Of a stretch of DNA of 64,000 nt, positions 2 to 8,304 are shown piece after piece. Origin of the DNA: Limnohabitans sp. 103DPR2 (lineage in GTDB: Bacteria; Pseudomonadota; Gammaproteobacteria; Burkholderiales; Burkholderiaceae_C); the NCBI RefSeq assembly GCF_001412575.1, contig NZ_CP011834.1:992001-1056000 (forward strand), written 5' to 3'. Below the pieces are notes generated by a model. It ran no database searches. It had not been told where the DNA came from and was given only the letters and a program-made list of their open reading frames with translations. The first letter of the stretch is position 1; every line of letters starts with the position of its first letter. The position numbers and the translations under genes were made by a program.

Positions 2-154
2 GATTTCTTCTCTGAATCCTTGTTTGTTCACATGCAGGTGCTGGGCATGAGTGGCCAGTGGATGGGGAAAGATTTTGGTGATGACCTGGGCATGGACGCT
101 GTGCAAACCAAGTTGGCTGCCAACTCGAGTGAGCAAGAGGCGGCCCATGTCTAA
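2..154 (+). CDS. crtA: C-terminal end of a probable spheroidene monooxygenase (5' truncated by window edge)
   Basis: Only the last 50 codons are present; the reading frame is open from base 2 and stops with TAA at 152-154. The fragment has the pattern FSESLFVHMQV...SGQWMGKD. This resembles what I recall of the C-terminal end of CrtA-type monooxygenases, where an aromatic/acidic stretch is followed by G-x-W-x-G-D. CrtA adds keto groups to spheroidene in the presence of oxygen. Its stop codon lies 5 bases inside the start of crtD, so it is translationally coupled to crtD and crtC, and a crtADC order downstream of puf is what I recall for Rubrivivax. The assignment rests mostly on context, because 50 residues are too few to prove the family. 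Confidence 0.45.
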   Translation, partial: DFFSESLFVHMQVLGMSGQWMGKDFGDDLGMDAVQTKLAANSSEQEAAHV

Positions 155-1679
155 ACAAAGGGTGGTCATTGTGGGCGCTGGCATGGGCGGCTTGACCAGT
201 GCTTTGCACTTGTCACACCACGGCTACGACGTGACCGTTCTGGAGGCCTCATCGGTACCGGGTGGCAAGGTTCATACCCGCGAGGTGCAAGGCGCCAAAA
301 TTGACAGTGGCCCAACGGTTTTCACCATGCGCTGGGTTTTTGACGAATTGTTTCAAGAGGTAGGCACCAGCCTGTCGCAAGAACTCTCGCTCACACCCTT
401 GTCGGTGTTGGCCAGGCATTTTTGGCCAGATGGCAGTCAGCTTGATTTGTCTGCCAACGCGCAAGAGAGTGAAGCCAACATCGAAACATGGTCCAGCCCC
501 TCTGAAGCTTTGCTGTTTCGAAAATTTTGTCAAACTGCACAAGCAACTTACCGCAATTTGGAAGGGCCTGTCATCCGTTCCGCGCGGCCCAACATGTTGT
601 CGCTGATGACCCGCTTGGGTCCGCAGGGCTTGGGACAGTTGGCGCAATTGGGGCCCCTGCGAACCCTTTGGCAGCAGATGTGTCTGCAATTCAAAGATGA
701 GCGCTTGCGCCAGTTGTTTGCGCGTTATGCCACTTACTGTGGTTCTTCCCCTTGGGAAGCCCCCGCTACCTTGTTATTGATTGCCCAAGTTGAGATGGCC
801 GGCGTCTGGTCGGCTAAAGGTGGCATGACCTCATTGTCTGCAGCTTTGGCACGTTTGTCACAGGCGCGGGGTGCGCAGTTTAGATACAACGCCGCTTGCA
901 GCCAAATTTTGCAAAGACAAGGCCGTGTCTCTGGCGTTCGCTTGAGCAGCGGAGAAGAAATTCCAGCCGATGCGGTGGTCTTCAATGGCGATGCATCTGC
1001 TTTGCGTGAGGGCTTGCTGTCCAACGAAGTGCGAAGTGCGGTGCCTTCTAAAGCGCCGCCGCGTTCACTGTCGGCTTTGACTTGGTCGGTTCATGCCAAA
1101 GCCCAAGGTGTTGCGCTGGATCGCCACAACGTCTTTTTCCATGACGATTATTCAAGCGAGTTTGAAGACATCTTCAAGCGCCAACGCTTGCCCCATCAGC
1201 CCACGGTTTATGTTTGTGCGCAAGACCAACCCGGTCATGTGTCGCAAGAGGCGCCACAGCGTTTGCTGTGTTTGGTCAATGCACCTGCGGTGGGCGATGT
1301 GAACGGGTTGAACGAGGAGGCCTTAGAACAATGTCAAACAGAGAGCTTCCAACATTTAGAGCGTTTGGGCTTGAAACTGGAAATCACGCCTTTCAATTGT
1401 GTGCGGACCAGTCCAGCGGAATTTCACCAGCGCTTTCTAGCATCGGGGGGCGCGCTGTATGGCCAGGCCACGCATGGATGGACCAGTCTGTTCTCTCGTC
1501 CTGGATCGAAAACGCCCCTCCCAGGCCTGTTTCTGGCCGGGGGCAGTGTGCATCCGGGACCCGGCGTGCCCATGGCAGCGATGTCCGGTCGATTGGCGGC
1601 CGAGGCCCTGATGGCCAGCCACGGTTTGACCAATCGGTTCCCGCAAACGGCTACCTCTGGTGGTACATCGACGCTATGA
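147..1679 (+). CDS. crtD: Hydroxyneurosporene/methoxyneurosporene desaturase CrtD
   Basis: A 510-residue FAD-dependent carotenoid desaturase that introduces the C-3,4 double bond in the spheroidene branch. The N-terminus carries the dinucleotide-binding motif VVIVGAGMGG at about residues 6-15, followed by an acidic VLEAS strand end. The C-terminus has the CrtI/CrtD-family flavin motif GLFLAGGSVHPGPG starting at about residue 460. The ATG at 147 is chosen because it overlaps the preceding stop codon and puts the Rossmann motif four residues from the start; the open frame extends upstream to 51 without family similarity. The last 20 residues overlap out of frame with the beginning of crtC. It differs from the second desaturase in this window (crtI) in lacking a longer N-terminal extension. 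Confident at family level; the CrtD rather than CrtI call comes from the crtC neighbour. Confidence 0.88.
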   Translation: MSKQRVVIVGAGMGGLTSALHLSHHGYDVTVLEASSVPGGKVHTREVQGAKIDSGPTVFTMRWVFDELFQEVGTSLSQELSLTPLSVLARHFWPDGSQLDLSANAQESEANIETWSSPSEALLFRKFCQTAQATYRNLEGPVIRSARPNMLSLMTRLGPQGLGQLAQLGPLRTLWQQMCLQFKDERLRQLFARYATYCGSSPWEAPATLLLIAQVEMAGVWSAKGGMTSLSAALARLSQARGAQFRYNAACSQILQRQGRVSGVRLSSGEEIPADAVVFNGDASALREGLLSNEVRSAVPSKAPPRSLSALTWSVHAKAQGVALDRHNVFFHDDYSSEFEDIFKRQRLPHQPTVYVCAQDQPGHVSQEAPQRLLCLVNAPAVGDVNGLNEEALEQCQTESFQHLERLGLKLEITPFNCVRTSPAEFHQRFLASGGALYGQATHGWTSLFSRPGSKTPLPGLFLAGGSVHPGPGVPMAAMSGRLAAEALMASHGLTNRFPQTATSGGTSTL

Positions 1680-2539
1680 GTGACGACGGACAACACGGCA
1701 TGACACTCATTGCATTTGTGGGCAGTGTGTTCTCGCCTTATTACACGTGGGCCAGGCGCGCAGGGCAGGCCGATCCCGAAAATTATTGTGCTTTGAATGT
1801 GGCCATTTACAGCAAAGGTGCAAGCCGCTGGGCCATGACGGAGCGCGGCAAACAAAGCTGCTCACGTGACGCCAAAGAATTTGTCATTGGCCCTAGTTCT
1901 GTGACGTGGGATGGTGATTCATTGCGCATTCAGATCGATGAAGTTTCAACGCCTTGGCTGCAAAGCATTCAGGGCGAAATTCGCGTATGGCCAGAACAAT
2001 TGTTCAACTTCTCGGTGCCCATTGATCAACAAGGCGCACATCGCTGGGGGCCCCTTGCGCCATCTGCACGTGTGGAGGTGAATTTAACTTCACCCAACTT
2101 GCAATGGAAGGGTCAGGCCTATCTCGATTCCAATGAAGGCGACGAGCCCATCACCGAGGCTTTTCACACTTGGAATTGGTCGCGCGCCAAGATGAAAGAC
2201 AACAGCAGTTTGGTGTTCTACGACATGGCTTGGCCAGATCAAGAGGACAAACTGCTCTCGCTGCGGTTTACACCGCAAGGCCAAGTCGAAGCCGTGCCTT
2301 CTGCGCCAGTGCAAACCCTGCGCAAGACAGGTTGGCAAATTGGAAGGCGCATGCGAAGCGACACGCCAGTCTCGGTTCATGAGCAACTCGAAGACACCCC
2401 TTTTTATCAACGCGCATTGCTGAACTTCTCGTACGCCGGCGAAAAGCTGCTGGCCTTTCACGAGACCTTGTCAGTGCCCCGTTTGTTGTCGCCTGTGGTG
2501 CAGGCGATGCTGCCATTTCGAATGCCAAGGAGAGCTTGA
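1478..2539 (+). CDS. crtC: Acyclic carotenoid 1,2-hydratase (hydroxyneurosporene synthase) CrtC
   Basis: Adds water across the psi-end double bond of neurosporene or lycopene. The conserved core is plain: GYLWWYIDAMSDDGQHG, then IAFVGSVFSPYYTWARR, then WDGDSLRIQIDE. The start is uncertain. The family-like WWYIDA segment begins at about 1636 and is read through the 3' end of crtD in another frame. The only in-frame ATG upstream of it close to crtD's end is at 1478 (353 residues). The ATG at 1676 forms an ATGA overlap with the crtD stop and would give 287 residues, but would cut off the WWYIDA segment. There is no in-frame GTG or TTG between them. It is followed by a 125-base leader and then the LH2 genes. 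Confidence 0.82.
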   Translation: MDQSVLSSWIENAPPRPVSGRGQCASGTRRAHGSDVRSIGGRGPDGQPRFDQSVPANGYLWWYIDAMSDDGQHGMTLIAFVGSVFSPYYTWARRAGQADPENYCALNVAIYSKGASRWAMTERGKQSCSRDAKEFVIGPSSVTWDGDSLRIQIDEVSTPWLQSIQGEIRVWPEQLFNFSVPIDQQGAHRWGPLAPSARVEVNLTSPNLQWKGQAYLDSNEGDEPITEAFHTWNWSRAKMKDNSSLVFYDMAWPDQEDKLLSLRFTPQGQVEAVPSAPVQTLRKTGWQIGRRMRSDTPVSVHEQLEDTPFYQRALLNFSYAGEKLLAFHETLSVPRLLSPVVQAMLPFRMPRRA

Positions 2540-2664: not shown

Positions 2665-2814
2665 ATGTCATCTGACAAAGTAGGGCCCAGCGGTTTGACC
2701 GAGGCCGAATCAGAAGAGATTCACCGTAATCTCATCCAAGGCACACAGATTTTCGGCATGGTTGCCGCATTTGCCCATCTGTTGGCCTATATCTATTCAC
2801 CCTGGCTTAAATAA
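2665..2814 (+). CDS. pucB: LH2 antenna beta subunit
   Basis: A 49-residue single-helix light-harvesting polypeptide. It has the standard beta-chain layout: acidic N-terminus with GLTEAESEEIHRNL, His20, a transmembrane helix with the bacteriochlorophyll-binding His38 in FAHLLAYIYSPWLK, and the short PWL tail. The tail SPWLK and the absence of the LH1-type WRPWF end favour LH2 (puc) over LH1 (puf). The start is set by TAGGAG six bases upstream. The stop is followed directly by the pucA ribosome site (AAGGAG) and the gap to pucA is nine bases, so both chains should be made together. It pairs with the alpha chain that follows to form the ring antenna in the intracytoplasmic membrane. Confidence 0.93.
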   Translation: MSSDKVGPSGLTEAESEEIHRNLIQGTQIFGMVAAFAHLLAYIYSPWLK

Positions 2815-2823
2815 GGAGTCACC

Positions 2824-3024
2824 ATGATTTACGCAAAAATGTGGACCGTGGTGAAACCTTCAGTTGGCATTCCAGTGTTCATCGCTGCTGTGGCTATTGC
2901 CTCATTCAGCGTGCACCTGGCACTGACACTGAACACCACTTGGGTGAAAGGCTTTTTGAATGGCGGAGCTGGTAAGGTTGTTGCAGTTGCAGCACCTGCC
3001 GCTGAACCGGCAGTTAAAAAGTAA
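2824..3024 (+). CDS. pucA: LH2 antenna alpha subunit, B800-820-like C-terminus
   Basis: A 66-residue alpha chain. It aligns without gaps to LH2 alpha chains: K5, WTVV at 7-10, P12, GIP at 15-17, His31 as the B850-type bacteriochlorophyll ligand, TTW at 38-40 and GG at 47-48. Positions 44-45 are Phe-Leu (GFLNGG), where B800-850 alpha chains have Tyr-Trp. In Rhodoblastus/Rhodopseudomonas acidophila those Tyr and Trp hydrogen-bond the acetyl groups of the coupled bacteriochlorophylls, and Phe-Leu is what its 820-nm form carries. A blue-shifted B800-820 antenna is therefore predicted. The C-terminal tail is rich in Ala, Val and Pro, as in Rubrivivax. AAGGAG precedes the ATG. Confidence 0.93.
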   Translation: MIYAKMWTVVKPSVGIPVFIAAVAIASFSVHLALTLNTTWVKGFLNGGAGKVVAVAAPAAEPAVKK

Positions 3025-3079
3025 CGGGGTGTTCCCCGACGAAAGACCAAGCGCTTTACCGCGCTTGGTACTTTCTTTT
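3025..3079 (+). terminator. Double hairpin between pucA and pucC
   Basis: Just after the pucA stop are CGGGG-TGTT-CCCCG (3025-3038) and a perfect 9-base stem ACCAAGCGC-TTTACC-GCGCTTGGT (3046-3069), followed by ACTTTCTTTT. It has the form of an intrinsic terminator with a broken U-tract. In puc and puf operons such structures protect the 3' end of the antenna mRNA and reduce read-through into the assembly gene, and that role fits here. Confidence 0.72.
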
Positions 3080-3090
3080 GAATTTTCAAA

Positions 3091-4452
3091 ATGAACCGTA
3101 CAAGAACCCAGTGGGTTGTTTCTTGGGCCAGTCAGTTGGGCCCACGTTTCTTGCCGTTTGCAGACGCTGCCAGTGAAGATTTGCCACTGTCCCGTTTGCT
3201 TCGTCTTTCCTTGTTTCAAATTTCTGTCGGCATGGCCATGGTCATGCTGGTGGGCACGCTCAATCGCGTGATGATTGTCGAGATGAGCGTCCCCACAAGC
3301 TTGGTGTCTTTCATGGTGGCTTTGCCCTTGCTGATTGCACCGTTTCGCGCTTTGATTGGTTTCCAATCTGATCACCACCGTTCGCATCTGGGTTGGCGCC
3401 GCGTGCCCTTCATTTGGATGGGCACCCTCATGCAATTTGGTGGCTTCTCCATCATGCCTTTTGCGTTGTTGGTCTTGTCGGGTGCCGGACAGTCTGCCCA
3501 AGCGCCGCAATGGGTGGGCCAGTTTGGCGCAGCCGTTGCCTTCATTTTGGTCGGGGTGGGTATTCACACCACCCAAACGGCAGGTCTTGCATTGGCCACC
3601 GATTTGGCACCGCAAGAGAAGCAGGCCAAAGTGGTGGGACTGATGTATGTCATGCAACTCATGGGCATGATGGGCAGTGCGTTGGTATTAGGCGATTTAT
3701 TGGCCGATTACAGCCCTGGCGCATTGATCCGAGTGGTTCAAGCAGTGGCAGTGATCACGCTGGTCTTGAATGTGGTGGCGGTGTGGAAGCAAGAAGCACG
3801 CAGTCGCCAAAGGCAGCCAGGCGCGTCGCCTGAAGCATCGTTCCAGGATTCTTGGCGATTATTTTGTGAAGGCCCCCACACCGTTAGAAGGCTCTTGGCT
3901 GTGGGCTTAGGCTCAATGGCCTTCACCATGGAAGATGTGCTGCTGGAGCCCTATGGTGGCGAAATACTCAAACTCAGCGTGTCTTCCACCACACTCCTGA
4001 CCTTCACCTTGGCTTTGGGTGGATTGATCGGCTTCGCTTGGGCGTCTCGGGTCATTACCCGAGGTGCAGATCCGTATCAAATGGCCAGCTGGGGCGCATG
4101 GACAGGGTTGCCTGCTTTTGTATTCATTATTTTGGCAGCGCCTCTGATGTCGGTCCCACTGTTTATTTTGGGTGTGTTCTTGATTGGCTTGGGGGGCGGC
4201 CTGTTTGCGCACGGTACCTTGACCGCTAGCATGAACTTGGCACCGCCCGATCAAGTGGGCTTGGCCATGGGTGCATGGGGAGCCGTTCAGGCGACAGCTT
4301 CGGGCATTGGCATGGCCTTGGGTGGCTTGCTGCGCGATGGCGTGGCACAATGGACCAATTCTGTGACGGGTTACTCCGCTGTTTATGGCATTGAAGTTGT
4401 GATGCTGCTTCTCACCTTGGTGGCCATGAAGCCCTTATTAAGAAATTCTTAA
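3091..4452 (+). CDS. pucC: PucC, LH2 assembly factor (PucC/LhaA/BCH2 family carrier)
   Basis: A 453-residue, twelve-helix membrane protein of the major-facilitator-related PucC family. These proteins help insert or assemble antenna complexes and possibly deliver bacteriochlorophyll. Family hallmarks are FADAASEDLPLSRLLRLSL near residue 22, GTLNRVMIVE near 52, HLGWRRVPFIWMG near 99 and EDVLLEPYGGEIL in the middle. It is a close paralogue of lhaA in this window, which shares the FADAAS-DLPL-RLLRLS motif. It follows pucBA with a hairpin in between, so it is expected at lower levels than the antenna chains. The ATG at 3091 has no strong ribosome site, but no better candidate lies upstream of the conserved FADAAS segment. 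Confidence 0.88.
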   Translation: MNRTRTQWVVSWASQLGPRFLPFADAASEDLPLSRLLRLSLFQISVGMAMVMLVGTLNRVMIVEMSVPTSLVSFMVALPLLIAPFRALIGFQSDHHRSHLGWRRVPFIWMGTLMQFGGFSIMPFALLVLSGAGQSAQAPQWVGQFGAAVAFILVGVGIHTTQTAGLALATDLAPQEKQAKVVGLMYVMQLMGMMGSALVLGDLLADYSPGALIRVVQAVAVITLVLNVVAVWKQEARSRQRQPGASPEASFQDSWRLFCEGPHTVRRLLAVGLGSMAFTMEDVLLEPYGGEILKLSVSSTTLLTFTLALGGLIGFAWASRVITRGADPYQMASWGAWTGLPAFVFIILAAPLMSVPLFILGVFLIGLGGGLFAHGTLTASMNLAPPDQVGLAMGAWGAVQATASGIGMALGGLLRDGVAQWTNSVTGYSAVYGIEVVMLLLTLVAMKPLLRNS

Positions 4453-4490
4453 AGATTCCAATTCATCAGCAATAGGCAAAGGAAGATACG

Positions 4491-4577
4491 ATGCAAACAA
4501 CTCACATTCTCATCATCATGTACGTGGTGTTCTGTCTGTTCATGTTGGCCAATTGGTTCAATCGCCCACGCAAGTAA
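4491..4577 (+). CDS. 28-residue single-helix membrane peptide downstream of pucC
   Basis: A short frame, MQTTHILIIMYVVFCLFM followed by LANWFNRPRK and TAA. It is preceded by GGAAG seven bases before the ATG and lies 38 bases after pucC. The predicted protein is one hydrophobic helix (about residues 6-21) with a basic C-terminal end (N-R-P-R-K). By the positive-inside rule the C-terminus should face the cytoplasm. I do not recognise a family. Short membrane peptides accompany several photosynthetic and respiratory complexes (PufX, PucE, CydX), so an LH2-associated subunit is a reasonable guess. It is followed at once by strong hairpins, making it the last gene of the puc transcript. Confidence 0.55.
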   Translation: MQTTHILIIMYVVFCLFMLANWFNRPRK

Positions 4578-4906: not shown

Positions 4907-5971
4907 TCAAGAGTGAAGCCGTTGACGCCCTTGCAGGCGCTCGTTTTCACGTCGTTCGAGTAAATCAAAAACCCATGCCACGCGTTGCGGCATGGCACGG
5001 TTGGGAAAGTAAGCCCCGACCCATTGCGCACTGGCTTGTGTGTTTTGGTTGTGCAGCGCTAAAAATTGAATGGCCTGCAAAGGTTTGGGTTGGTTTTCTG
5101 CCGTTCGAATCCAAGCGGCTTGAGTCCAAGCGGAGGCCAGCAACACCAATTTGCGCGTGGTACTGACCACGGTGCGTGTGCTGACCGAGTCCAGTCCTTC
5201 GCGTTTAAGTTGAACGCCAATCTCTCTGTAAATCATGCTGGCTGCCAGAATGGCTGAACGGCAATCGGGGGGCAATGCGGCAATGCCGGGTTGGGCTTGC
5301 TTGTACAGGCGATCTGCTTCTTCAAGCAGGCGGGCCACAACGATTTGGATGCCGGGGGTCAAGATAGGGTTTTGCAACCATTCTTCAGGCTGCACACCGG
5401 CTTCAATCAGCCAACGTCTCGGCAAATAAATTCGGCCTATGGCGGCATCCGCGCCAACATCTCGCGCAATGTTGGTCAGCTGCATGGCCACACCCAGTTC
5501 ACACGCGCGCTCAAGGGTGTCTGTGTTTTGCGGACCCATGATCCAGCACATCATGGCGCCAACGCTGCCTGCTACGCGGGCCGCATAGTCGTGCACTTCT
5601 TCAATGCTGTCATAACGCCGGCCTTTGGCATCCCACGCAAAGCCTTCAATCAAGGCATCTAAAAAATGTCGGGGCAGCTCATATTGTTGAACCACCATGC
5701 TCAAAGCATGATCTTCCACATGGTCTTTAGGCGTGCCTGCATAGATGGCGTCGAGGCGTTCACGCAGAACGTCAAGCGGTGCTTGGCCGGGCAAGGCTTC
5801 ATCCACCAGATCATCGGCCACTCGGCAAAAAGCGTACAAGGCAATGGAGGCTGTTCGAATGCGAGGGGGCAATAATCGACTGGCTGCAAAAAAAGTTTTC
5901 GAGCCGCCCTTCATCATGGCGACGCAGGCCTCGAGGTTGGCCGTGTTGGGGATGGGATTAAACTGAAACAT
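4907..5971 (-). CDS. crtB: Phytoene synthase CrtB
   Basis: Condenses two geranylgeranyl diphosphates to phytoene, the first committed carotenoid step. The two aspartate-rich substrate sites of the squalene/phytoene synthase family are visible: RVADDLVDE (about residues 50-58) and NIARDVGADAAIGRIYLP (about residues 167-184), together with LYAFCR. The ATG at 5971 (MFQFNP) overlaps the crtI end by 14 bases; an in-frame ATG at 5989 would add six residues. The protein is about 354 residues, somewhat longer than the usual 300-340 because of a C-terminal tail after the FPNRAMPQRV segment. It is translated with crtI as the usual crtIB pair. Confidence 0.92.
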   Translation of the reverse strand: MFQFNPIPNTANLEACVAMMKGGSKTFFAASRLLPPRIRTASIALYAFCRVADDLVDEALPGQAPLDVLRERLDAIYAGTPKDHVEDHALSMVVQQYELPRHFLDALIEGFAWDAKGRRYDSIEEVHDYAARVAGSVGAMMCWIMGPQNTDTLERACELGVAMQLTNIARDVGADAAIGRIYLPRRWLIEAGVQPEEWLQNPILTPGIQIVVARLLEEADRLYKQAQPGIAALPPDCRSAILAASMIYREIGVQLKREGLDSVSTRTVVSTTRKLVLLASAWTQAAWIRTAENQPKPLQAIQFLALHNQNTQASAQWVGAYFPNRAMPQRVAWVFDLLERRENERLQGRQRLHS

Positions 5972-7517
5972 GGGGTACCACCGTTTCAAGTGCCTTGGCC
6001 GACATCAACACCCCAGGCACGCCCGCTCCTGGATGTGTGCCAGCCCCCACCATGTACAAACCCGGAATGTCTTCGCTTCGGTTGTGAGGACGGAACCACG
6101 CACTTTGCAAGAGCAAAGGCTCTAGTCCAAAGCCAGCGCCTTTATAGGACCACAAGTTATCGTGAAAGTCTTGCGGCGTGGTGATTTTGGAAGTGACGAT
6201 GGATTCCCGCAATCCAGGCAGAACGGAAGCTTCTAAGGCTTCCGCAATGGCGGCGCGGTAGGTTTCAGCGTATTGGACCCAATCGGTGCCACTGTCCAAG
6301 TGCGGAACTGGCGACAGCGCATAAAAAGTGTCACAACCTGTTGGCGCCAAGGACGGATCGGTGGCGGTGGGGCGGTGCAAGTACAGGCTGAAATCTTTGG
6401 CCAGATGGTGACGCTTGAAAATGTCTGTGAGCAAGCCTTTGTAGCGCGGACCTAGCACCATCATGTGGTGTGGTACATCGTGGTATTGCTTGGAGGTGCC
6501 AAAGTACCAAACAAACAAGCCCATGGAATAGCGACCATTTTCAATTTTGCGATTGGTCCAATGGCGGCGGTGTTGCGGTGCCACCAAGTTCTTGTATGTC
6601 CATGCTGTGTCTGCATTGCTCACCACAATGTCGGCGGCGATGAACTCGCCCGACGCCAACTCAACACCACACGCTTTGCCGTTTTCAATGCGAATTTGTG
6701 TGACAGGTGCATTCAGGCGCAATTGAATGCCGCGTGAATCCAGCAAACCCACCATGGCTTTCACAATGGCGCCGGTTCCGCCCATGGCAGAGTGAACGCC
6801 CCAGGTTCTTTCGAGGGAGTTGATCAAGGCATAAGCCGCTGTGACCGAGAAAGGGTTGCCACCAATCAGCAAGGGGTGGAAGCTCATGACCGTGCGAAGC
6901 TTGTCATTGCTAAAGTGTTTGGCCACCAAGGCGTAAATGCTGCGCCAAGCGCCCATTTTGAGGAAGGAGGGAATGGCTTTGATCAGATCGCCCAAGGTGT
7001 CAAAGGCAATCGAGCCCAAACCTTCAAACCCAAGTGTTTTGCAGCGCTCTGCATCTTTCACAAAATCCAAATACCCTTGAACATCTTCGGGGCAGAAGCG
7101 TGCCACTTCGTCCAACATTTTGGCTTCATCGGCGCTGTAATCAAACCAAGTGCCATCGTCAAAGCGAATTCTATAAAACGGGTCCATGGGCACCAGCGAC
7201 ACGTCGTCTGCAAACTTTTTACCGCACAGTGTCCAAAGCTCTTCTAACAAAAACGGTGCGGTGATGATGGTGGGACCGGCATCAAAGGTAAAGCCATCTT
7301 GACGGTGCACATAAGCGCGGCCACCCGGGGCATCTAGCTTTTCCAACACTTTGACTTGATAGCCTTTGACACTCAAACGAATGGCTGCGGCCAAGCCGCC
7401 AAAGCCACTGCCAATGATGACAGCCATGGGCCTGGCATCCGAGCTGCCGTCGTTGCCCCCGGGCTGCCTTGCGTTCAGACCGGGATGCGAAAAACCATTG
7501 GCATTGAATGCGTTCAT
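5958..7517 (-). CDS. crtI: Phytoene desaturase CrtI
   Basis: A 519-residue FAD-dependent desaturase converting phytoene stepwise to neurosporene and/or lycopene. An N-terminal extension of about 30 residues precedes the flavin motif AVIIGSGFGGLAAAIRLS, followed by GGRAYV. The C-terminal bacterial-type desaturase signature is GLYMVGAGTHPGAGVPGVL. The start at 7517 (MNAFNANG) is preceded by TTAAGG, and the gap to the puhE stop is seven bases. The open frame continues upstream to 7592 inside puhE without family similarity. Whether it makes three or four desaturations cannot be read from the sequence; crtC and crtD upstream imply at least the spheroidene route. Confidence 0.93.
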   Translation of the reverse strand: MNAFNANGFSHPGLNARQPGGNDGSSDARPMAVIIGSGFGGLAAAIRLSVKGYQVKVLEKLDAPGGRAYVHRQDGFTFDAGPTIITAPFLLEELWTLCGKKFADDVSLVPMDPFYRIRFDDGTWFDYSADEAKMLDEVARFCPEDVQGYLDFVKDAERCKTLGFEGLGSIAFDTLGDLIKAIPSFLKMGAWRSIYALVAKHFSNDKLRTVMSFHPLLIGGNPFSVTAAYALINSLERTWGVHSAMGGTGAIVKAMVGLLDSRGIQLRLNAPVTQIRIENGKACGVELASGEFIAADIVVSNADTAWTYKNLVAPQHRRHWTNRKIENGRYSMGLFVWYFGTSKQYHDVPHHMMVLGPRYKGLLTDIFKRHHLAKDFSLYLHRPTATDPSLAPTGCDTFYALSPVPHLDSGTDWVQYAETYRAAIAEALEASVLPGLRESIVTSKITTPQDFHDNLWSYKGAGFGLEPLLLQSAWFRPHNRSEDIPGLYMVGAGTHPGAGVPGVLMSAKALETVVPHVSV

Positions 7518-7524
7518 GAAAGCC

Positions 7525-8304
7525 TTAAGGTGGGGTGGAGAGAGCTGATTCCACCGAGGACTGGCCCATGGCCCAACCCCAAAGCCGCTCAAGTGGCAAT
7601 GGGAAAATCATGATGAGGTGTTCCACAATGGCCAAGCCCAAGAGGGTGGCCAACATGACCCAACCTGTGGTGATGGCCATGGCGCCTTGCTGGGCTTGCC
7701 AAACCAACCAACACCAAGTGCCAATGGCTGCACTGATGGAAACCACAAACCAAGGGGTGATCAGGCGTGAGCGAAAGTAGCTGGCCAAATAAACCAGATG
7801 CGCAGGCAGGTACTGTGCGCCGTTTTGTGGCACCCCAAAAAAGAGGTTCAGTTTGGCCGACAAACGCATGAACCACAGCAGCGCATATGTGCAAAGGGCT
7901 ACATGGTTGGGTTGGTCCATTTGCATCAGCCACAAAATGCCGAAGTTGATGAGCAAGACCACTTCATGATGAAGCATGACTTGCACCGATTCTTGAAACC
8001 GTTGCCAGCCTTGGGCGCCTTCGGTCAAGGGGACCTTGCGCGGGCCGGTGATCCATCCTGTGAGGAAAGCCAATTCGTGCCAACCCCACATCACAATCAC
8101 ACTGCCAAAAGCTAAGTAAGCATTGGCAACGCTGACCTCGCGCATGCTTTCATAAACGCCCTTGAAACTCAAAATCAAGAGCATGCTCCAGCCCAACAAA
8201 CTCCAGCGAAAGCTTGCAGGCGGTAAACGATCGAGCCACAAAATCACACCTGTGCCAAACCACCAGCACATGGCTGTGAAAACACAGGCCCAAACGACGT
8301 CCAT
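7525..8304 (-). CDS. puhE: Photosynthetic complex assembly protein PuhE (DUF3623)
   Basis: A 259-residue integral membrane protein with about seven hydrophobic helices. The conserved ESMREVSVANAYLAF, WGWHELAFLTGW and AKLNLFFGVPQNG segments are typical of PuhE, which in Rhodobacter affects reaction centre/LH1 assembly and bacteriochlorophyll supply. The start codon at 8304 forms a TAATG overlap with the acsF stop. A GTA-separated ATG two codons upstream (8310) is possible but not needed. It lies between acsF and crtI, as in Rubrivivax. Confidence 0.87.
   Translation of the reverse strand: MDVVWACVFTAMCWWFGTGVILWLDRLPPASFRWSLLGWSMLLILSFKGVYESMREVSVANAYLAFGSVIVMWGWHELAFLTGWITGPRKVPLTEGAQGWQRFQESVQVMLHHEVVLLINFGILWLMQMDQPNHVALCTYALLWFMRLSAKLNLFFGVPQNGAQYLPAHLVYLASYFRSRLITPWFVVSISAAIGTWCWLVWQAQQGAMAITTGWVMLATLLGLAIVEHLIMIFPLPLERLWGWAMGQSSVESALSTPP

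Follow-up and report, generated by a model that had tools for sequence, protein, structure and literature searches.

Limnohabitans is widespread in lakes, and the puc operon of Limnohabitans sp. 103DPR2 raises the question of where its peripheral antenna absorbs. The window analysed here is a stretch of 64,000 nucleotides, positions 992,001-1,056,000 of one 2.95-Mb contig, from a genome rated 100% complete. An initial annotation had read Phe44-Leu45 of the pucA alpha chain as the signature of a B800-820 (LH3) antenna, produced from what looked like the principal puc operon. The relevant features of the window are as follows.

147..1679, forward strand: crtD, the upstream neighbour (NF045637 over cut-off, profile run on 171-1676).
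1676..2539, forward strand: crtC-like carotenoid 1,2-hydratase (NF045922, E 2.5e-75, below the equivalog cut-off).
2665..2814, forward strand: pucB, LH2 beta chain of 49 amino acids (PF00556 over cut-off; the nearest beta chains of known structure come from Rps. palustris LH2).
2824..3024, forward strand: pucA, LH2 alpha chain of 66 amino acids with an Ala/Pro-rich C-terminal extension (translation, PDB and Pfam matches, alignment).
2944..2946, forward strand: pucA codon 41, GTG, Val, without a hydrogen-bond donor (translation, PDB alignments; role of residue 41 as described in PMC9618040 and PMC6988754).
2953..2958, forward strand: pucA codons 44-45, TTT TTG, Phe-Leu, without donors to the ring bacteriochlorophylls (translation, PDB alignments).
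3046..3069, forward strand: stem-loop of 9 pairs followed by a T-rich stretch, a possible terminator or attenuator between pucA and pucC (stem-loop scan).
3091..4452, forward strand: pucC, antenna assembly factor family, 453 amino acids (PF03209, E 1.4e-146).
4491..4577, forward strand: conserved hydrophobic peptide of 28 amino acids after pucC, probably single-span and possibly a member of the puc operon (conservation, dN/dS).
4907..5989, reverse strand: crtB, phytoene synthase (PF00494 over cut-off, profile run on 4910-5968).
5958..7592, reverse strand: crtI, phytoene desaturase (TIGR02734 over cut-off).

The product of pucA, MIYAKMWTVVKPSVGIPVFIAAVAIASFSVHLALTLNTTWVKGFLNGGAGKVVAVAAPAAEPAVKK, carries the landmarks of an LH2 alpha chain: His31, Thr38-Thr39-Trp40, Val41, Phe44 (TTT, 2953-2955) and Leu45 (TTG, 2956-2958). 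Both it and the pucB product, encoded upstream, are above the cut-off of the Pfam LHC family (PF00556). In a PDB search residues 3-51 of the alpha chain fell onto 3-51 of both 1IJD and 1KZU and residues 4-52 onto 4-52 of 7ZE3, and none of the five printed alignments with LH2/LH3 alpha chains contains a gap. Furthermore, columns 1-50 are gapless in an alignment of the chain with eight diverse relatives, where H31, W40 and G47 are invariant. The match first described, gapless against LH2 alpha chains along residues 1-48 and with His31, TTW at 38-40 and Phe44-Leu45, is therefore confirmed by the translation and the PDB alignments. A shift of the GFLNGG segment relative to AYWQGG, named at the outset as a finding that would overturn the assignment, is ruled out by the ungapped PDB and nine-sequence alignments, and the placement of Phe44-Leu45 holds.

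In a B800-850 LH2, Tyr44 and Trp/Tyr45 bond two ring acetyl groups; in pucA these positions are Phe44-Leu45. The number of hydrogen bonds to the C3-acetyl groups is reported to set the band, two giving ~850 nm, one ~825 nm and none, as in PucD-LH2, B800-B803 (PMC9618040). The LH3 of Rhodoblastus acidophilus 7050 (1IJD, B800-820) also has Phe44-Leu45, in register with the window's chain, yet it keeps one bond from alpha-Tyr41 and absorbs at ~820-824 nm (PMC9618040, PMC6988754). Residue 41, which had been overlooked in the initial annotation, is Val in pucA. The equivalent residue of PucD is likewise Val (PMC6988754), and although the PucD numbering in PMC9618040 is inconsistent (Phe44/Met45 in one place, Met44/Phe45 in another), the PDB sequence of PucD-LH2, 7ZE3, reads Phe44-Met45 with Val41. 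A Phe44-Leu45 mutant of Rba. sphaeroides, in which residue 41 is Leu (PDB 7PBW), absorbs at 826 nm (PMC8775250), and a 2025 review gives F44L45 as the motif of the ~800-nm LH4 antennas of aerobic phototrophs (PMC12654162). The nine alpha chains of PDB 9lt4, named B-800/814 and with a band known from that molecule name only, have F41, F44 and F45 and no donor.

Phe44-Leu45 by itself thus denotes a blue-shifted antenna with a band anywhere between ~800 and 826 nm; 820 nm does not follow from it, since the pair is also reported for LH4 antennas at ~800 nm and since Tyr41 still provides a bond in the acidophilus LH3. The determinant to be read is the donor trio at 41, 44 and 45 and not 44/45 alone. 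In pucA (V41-F44-L45) donors are absent from all three positions, as in LH4 and PucD-type chains; the Phe44-Leu45 of acidophilus LH3 is there, and its Tyr41 is not. Of the original B800-820 reading the blue shift stands; the figure of 820 nm is too specific, given LH4 antennas at ~800 nm, the mutant at 826 nm, Val41 here and a relative listed at 813/799 nm (see below). The absence of acetyl bonds is further supported by the pucB product, which ends YSPWL like the printed Rps. palustris LH2 beta alignments, including that of the PucD beta chain, because PucD-LH2 is wholly without a C3 bond. Even so, the trio rule is inexact: the band lies at 826 nm for F44-L45 with Leu41 (Rba. sphaeroides) and at 803 nm for V41-F44-M45, so that other residues must matter too. 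It is possible that a hydrogen-bond donor comes from elsewhere in the ring.

In a whole-genome search the LHC family was found over cut-off in four genes, pufB, pufA, pucB and pucA; a fifth row was a sub-threshold match to 14 columns, and no second pucBA was detected. The pufB and pufA genes are located ~4 kb before the start of the window, so that the puc operon adjoins puf. As pufBA and pucBA are the only light-harvesting genes of the genome, the pucBA of the window is its sole peripheral antenna operon. The acidophilus LH3, by comparison, is made alongside a B800-850 LH2, and the role of low-light alternative beside another LH2 has no counterpart in a genome with a single pucBA. The review PMC12654162 also situates the Limnohabitans puc genes within the photosynthesis cluster. 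A separate point concerns the beta chain at 2665-2814, which is also matched by the NCBIfam equivalog for LH1 beta, NF040862 (64.7 against a cut-off of 61 bits).

The spread of Phe-Leu among the pucA genes of related genomes, an alignment proposed as a check on the first reading, proved wide. In the scan of species genomes, from which 80 of 87 loci were kept, V41-F44-L45 was found in 78 and V41-Y44-L45 in two; codons vary synonymously among these loci (Phe as TTT/TTC, Leu as CTC, CTG, TTG, CTT or TTA), and the persistence of the pair despite this variation shows that it is not there by chance. In a genus sample 37 of 90 genomes had a match, and the 30 loci read comprised 29 V-F-L and one V-Y-L; the other seven matching genomes had no locus in that reading, one of them being V-F-L at a locus in another set (G385, L082). 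Matches in the family sample came from 24 of 399 genomes, one of which was dropped as not an antenna gene (L104); the 23 alpha chains were V-F-L (8, own included), L-Y-Y (8), I-F-F (2), M-Y-W (2), F-F-V, V-Y-L and Y-Y-Y (1 each), with Tyr-Trp at 44-45 in two and Tyr-Tyr in nine. For the order, matches in 30 of 399 genomes fell at 31 places, one without a locus, and one of the 30 loci (L133) was dropped for an in-frame stop; the remaining 29 were V-F-L (20, own included), F-F-L (4), I-Y-H (2) and single cases of L-Y-Y (its genome being shared with the family sample), F-F-M and Y-F-Y. At phylum level 12 of 398 genomes matched, and the ten chains left after excluding the own locus and a repeat were V-F-L (6), F-Y-W, M-F-F, Y-Y-L and Y-Y-V (1 each).

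In a protein search with the window's chain as query, the best 120 of 305 matches were V-F-L (109), V-Y-L (8), A-F-L, F-F-L and V-S-L (1 each). When the query was a mixed profile in which Tyr-bearing rows were abundant, Tyr-Tyr predominated in the best 120 of 2,327 (L-Y-Y 81) and Phe-Leu was confined to five, which indicates that the donors are kept in other lineages. These samples and match lists are biased toward relatives of the query and are not unbiased frequencies; within them, Val41-Phe44-Leu45 is usual in close relatives and frequent in Burkholderiales. The in-frame stop in the pucA of L133 (genome G719) may be a sequencing error or a decayed gene. Two loci of a genus outside the window's order (g420; L145 and L146) differ at all three sites, reading Y41-Y44-V45 and V41-F44-L45.

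Among named records the alpha chain is matched best by that of Limnohabitans sp. Rim11 (98%); further Limnohabitans come next, interspersed with numerous bins from lake metagenomes. Genomes carrying PucC stretches that match those of Rim11 and L. planktonicus II-D5 exactly are assigned to the same genus as the window. A spectrum is available for L. planktonicus, listed with in vivo bands at 865, 813 and 799 nm in a table of PMC12654162 that cites Kasalicky 2018; the 813/799 nm figure is a species-level value, and the strain measured may differ from II-D5. The record of strain II-D5 has V41-F44-L45 within a TTWVKGFLNGG segment identical to that of the window, an alpha chain 86% identical overall, a closely similar beta chain, the same pucBA-pucC order and a small peptide gene after pucC. 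That L. planktonicus, with the same trio, is listed at 813 nm is the strongest single argument for a band near this wavelength in the product of the window, and our best estimate would be ~813 nm rather than 820 nm. The proposal that a blue-shifted LH2 is made from the principal puc operon is thus well supported, the operon being the only one and the trio being shared with this relative.

We consider it highly probable that the sole pucBA encodes an LH2 ring without acetyl donors, with B800 and a second band expected near 813 nm, although anything from 803 to 826 nm is plausible. On the mechanism published for other antennas, the lack of a donor at 41, 44 and 45 would leave the tightly coupled bacteriochlorophylls with unbonded 3-acetyl groups; this would raise the bacteriochlorophyll energy and shift the 850-nm band toward 800 nm. 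The predicted antenna, presumably a nonameric ring in constitutive use, would then feed LH1 near 865 nm.

Alternatively, the product could be a true B800-820 LH3 that absorbs at ~820 nm and keeps a single hydrogen bond to an acetyl group, like the LH3 of R. acidophilus 7050. This is possible although unlikely; like that for the LH4-type alternative below, the estimate concerns the exact band and overlaps with the range allowed above. Phe44-Leu45 is common to pucA and 1IJD, but the donor of acidophilus, Tyr41, is replaced by Val41 in the window and in 80/80 related loci, and L. planktonicus with the identical trio is listed at 813 nm in the review table. The acidophilus LH3 is, moreover, described as a low-light form (PMC9618040, PMC8775250). 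A published LH3-type precedent is Rhodoferax antarcticus ANT.BR, in which, as in the window, a sole puc operon (pucABC) is embedded in crt genes and donors are absent at 44-45; its LH3 absorbs at 819 nm and was proposed in 2017 to be an exclusive blue-shifted antenna (PMC5374385). Its pair is nevertheless Phe44-Phe45, against Phe44-Leu45 in the window. A further chain of this kind reads Tyr41 with Phe44-Phe45, against Val41-Phe44-Leu45 here (PDB 8z81). Our guess is that 8z81 may be from Rfx. antarcticus.

Less probable again is an antenna of LH4 type, in which the bands merge into one at ~800-806 nm; PucD-LH2 and the antennas of Roseobacter-type aerobic phototrophs are examples. The best PDB match of the alpha chain is PucD-LH2 of Rps. 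palustris (7ZE3, B800-B803), which shares Val41-Phe44 and has no acetyl bonds, but its residue 45 is Met where the window has Leu; PucD-LH2 is described as appearing in low light only, as one of four LH2 types purified from Rps. palustris, and as having a gamma chain (PMC9618040). For the Roseobacter-type antennas, PMC12654162 reports F44L45, use as the exclusive peripheral antenna and one band at ~800-806 nm, a comparison made by description; a plasmid search gave no match to a named Roseobacter-type alpha chain. V41-F44-L45 was present in 117 of the best 120 of 1,670 matches to a Rhodobacterales-type query, the other three being V-Y-L. Against a single merged band, L. planktonicus has two peripheral bands, 813 and 799 nm, in the review table.

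It is very improbable that the chains form a second ring around RC-LH1 in place of a separate nonamer, as LHh does in Gemmatimonas phototrophica (819 nm in the table of PMC12654162, where this is raised as a possibility for Limnohabitans), since the alpha chain shows no similarity to that of the Gemmatimonas antenna (7o0u) with a threshold as loose as E 10, matches nine-fold LH2 alpha chains at 6.7e-13 to 1.3e-8 with zero N-terminal offset, and ring size is tied to N-terminal length (PMC9618040). The pucB product does show a weak match to the beta chains of Gemmatimonas (3e-5), and also to many of LH1.

The two V41-Y44-L45 loci of the species-genome scan are those of Limnohabitans sp. Hippo3 (L048) and JirII-31 (L053), with pucA at 4001 and Tyr44 encoded by TAC; their alpha chains are otherwise close to those of sister strains, Hippo3 differing from its tree neighbour 2KL-1 (L028) at 43 and 44 only over residues 1-48, and both are predicted to be red-shifted variants. 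The tree was built from 137 PucC stretches out of 175 loci with an alpha chain, eight loci having been too short and the others merged because their stretches were identical; the own locus is present three times and many deep branches are weakly supported. On it the minimum number of changes is at least 12 at residue 44, at least 14 at residue 45 and at least 17 at residue 41. The two Tyr44 strains stand in separate places, each beside Phe44 rows, which suggests either two separate returns to Tyr44 or its transfer by recombination. Residues 41 and 44 switched in the same direction in ~4 of 8 supported independent pairs and in opposite directions in none, the rest being undecided (median p 0.125); a link between them is suggested but not significant. 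Co-switching of 44 and 45 was likewise not established (~3/8 pairs, p 0.25).

The peptide gene after pucC (28 codons) is preceded by AGGAAG at 4480-4485, five bases 5' of its ATG. Of 82 loci in which the sequence downstream of pucC was long enough, 64 have a hydrophobic peptide of the same kind; among the 18 misses, six carry one that a different pattern picked up or that is a longer candidate (L034, L037, L038, L049, L064, L019). The conserved peptide is 28-31 residues long, and sixteen examples, when aligned, have M1, F17 and N21 in common. The median dN/dS is 0.22 (24 codons, 1,118 usable pairs) for the 52 distinct sequences that 55 of these 64 loci contribute, with a ratio of at least 1 in 5 pairs; on the strength of this median, the frame is very likely a protein gene under purifying selection. 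Searches with the peptide or its profile found no family in Pfam or the PDB, and in NCBIfam gave sub-threshold TatA models only. Of 20 further regions from more distant genomes, 11 have a small hydrophobic frame after pucC, judged by eye rather than by a similarity test. Such a frame was present in 6/7 V41-F44-L45 loci and 5/13 others, but the 20 regions are too few and too related for the peptide to be linked to that residue state, and the idea was dropped. In four loci (L187-L189 and L200) pucBA is inverted relative to pucC, and there the small peptide was not found after pucC. Given where the gene lies, one would naturally suppose that the peptide partners LH2 or PucC; if true, this would be new.

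The antenna itself is largely of a known kind; blue-shifted bands are already published for Rfx. antarcticus, for Limnohabitans and for Pseudohaliea rubra, which has a constitutive 804/821-nm antenna (PMC3679898, PMC4239361). What is added is a correction, in that Phe44-Leu45 alone need not denote 820 nm, and a simple sequence cause for the published 799/813-nm Limnohabitans antenna, in which all three possible acetyl donors are absent. In the literature surveyed no paper tying a Limnohabitans spectrum to PucA residues was found, and the 2018 source of the spectrum may do so. The sister strains differing at residue 44 would allow the tuning rule to be tested in natural isolates without mutagenesis. 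More speculatively, and with only slim odds in our judgement, freshwater Burkholderiales might combine a constitutive bond-free LH2 with a third, single-span subunit of 28-31 residues encoded after pucC, the Tyr44 returns in Hippo3 and JirII-31 retuning the antenna in the wild.

The stem-loop at 3046-3069 possibly sets the ratio of antenna to PucC message; the region holds 6 terminator-like sites, against 3.0 +/- 1.6 expected. In one public source many Phe-Leu alpha chains are named B-800-850 by automatic annotation, and spectra guessed from such names would be wrong for this group.
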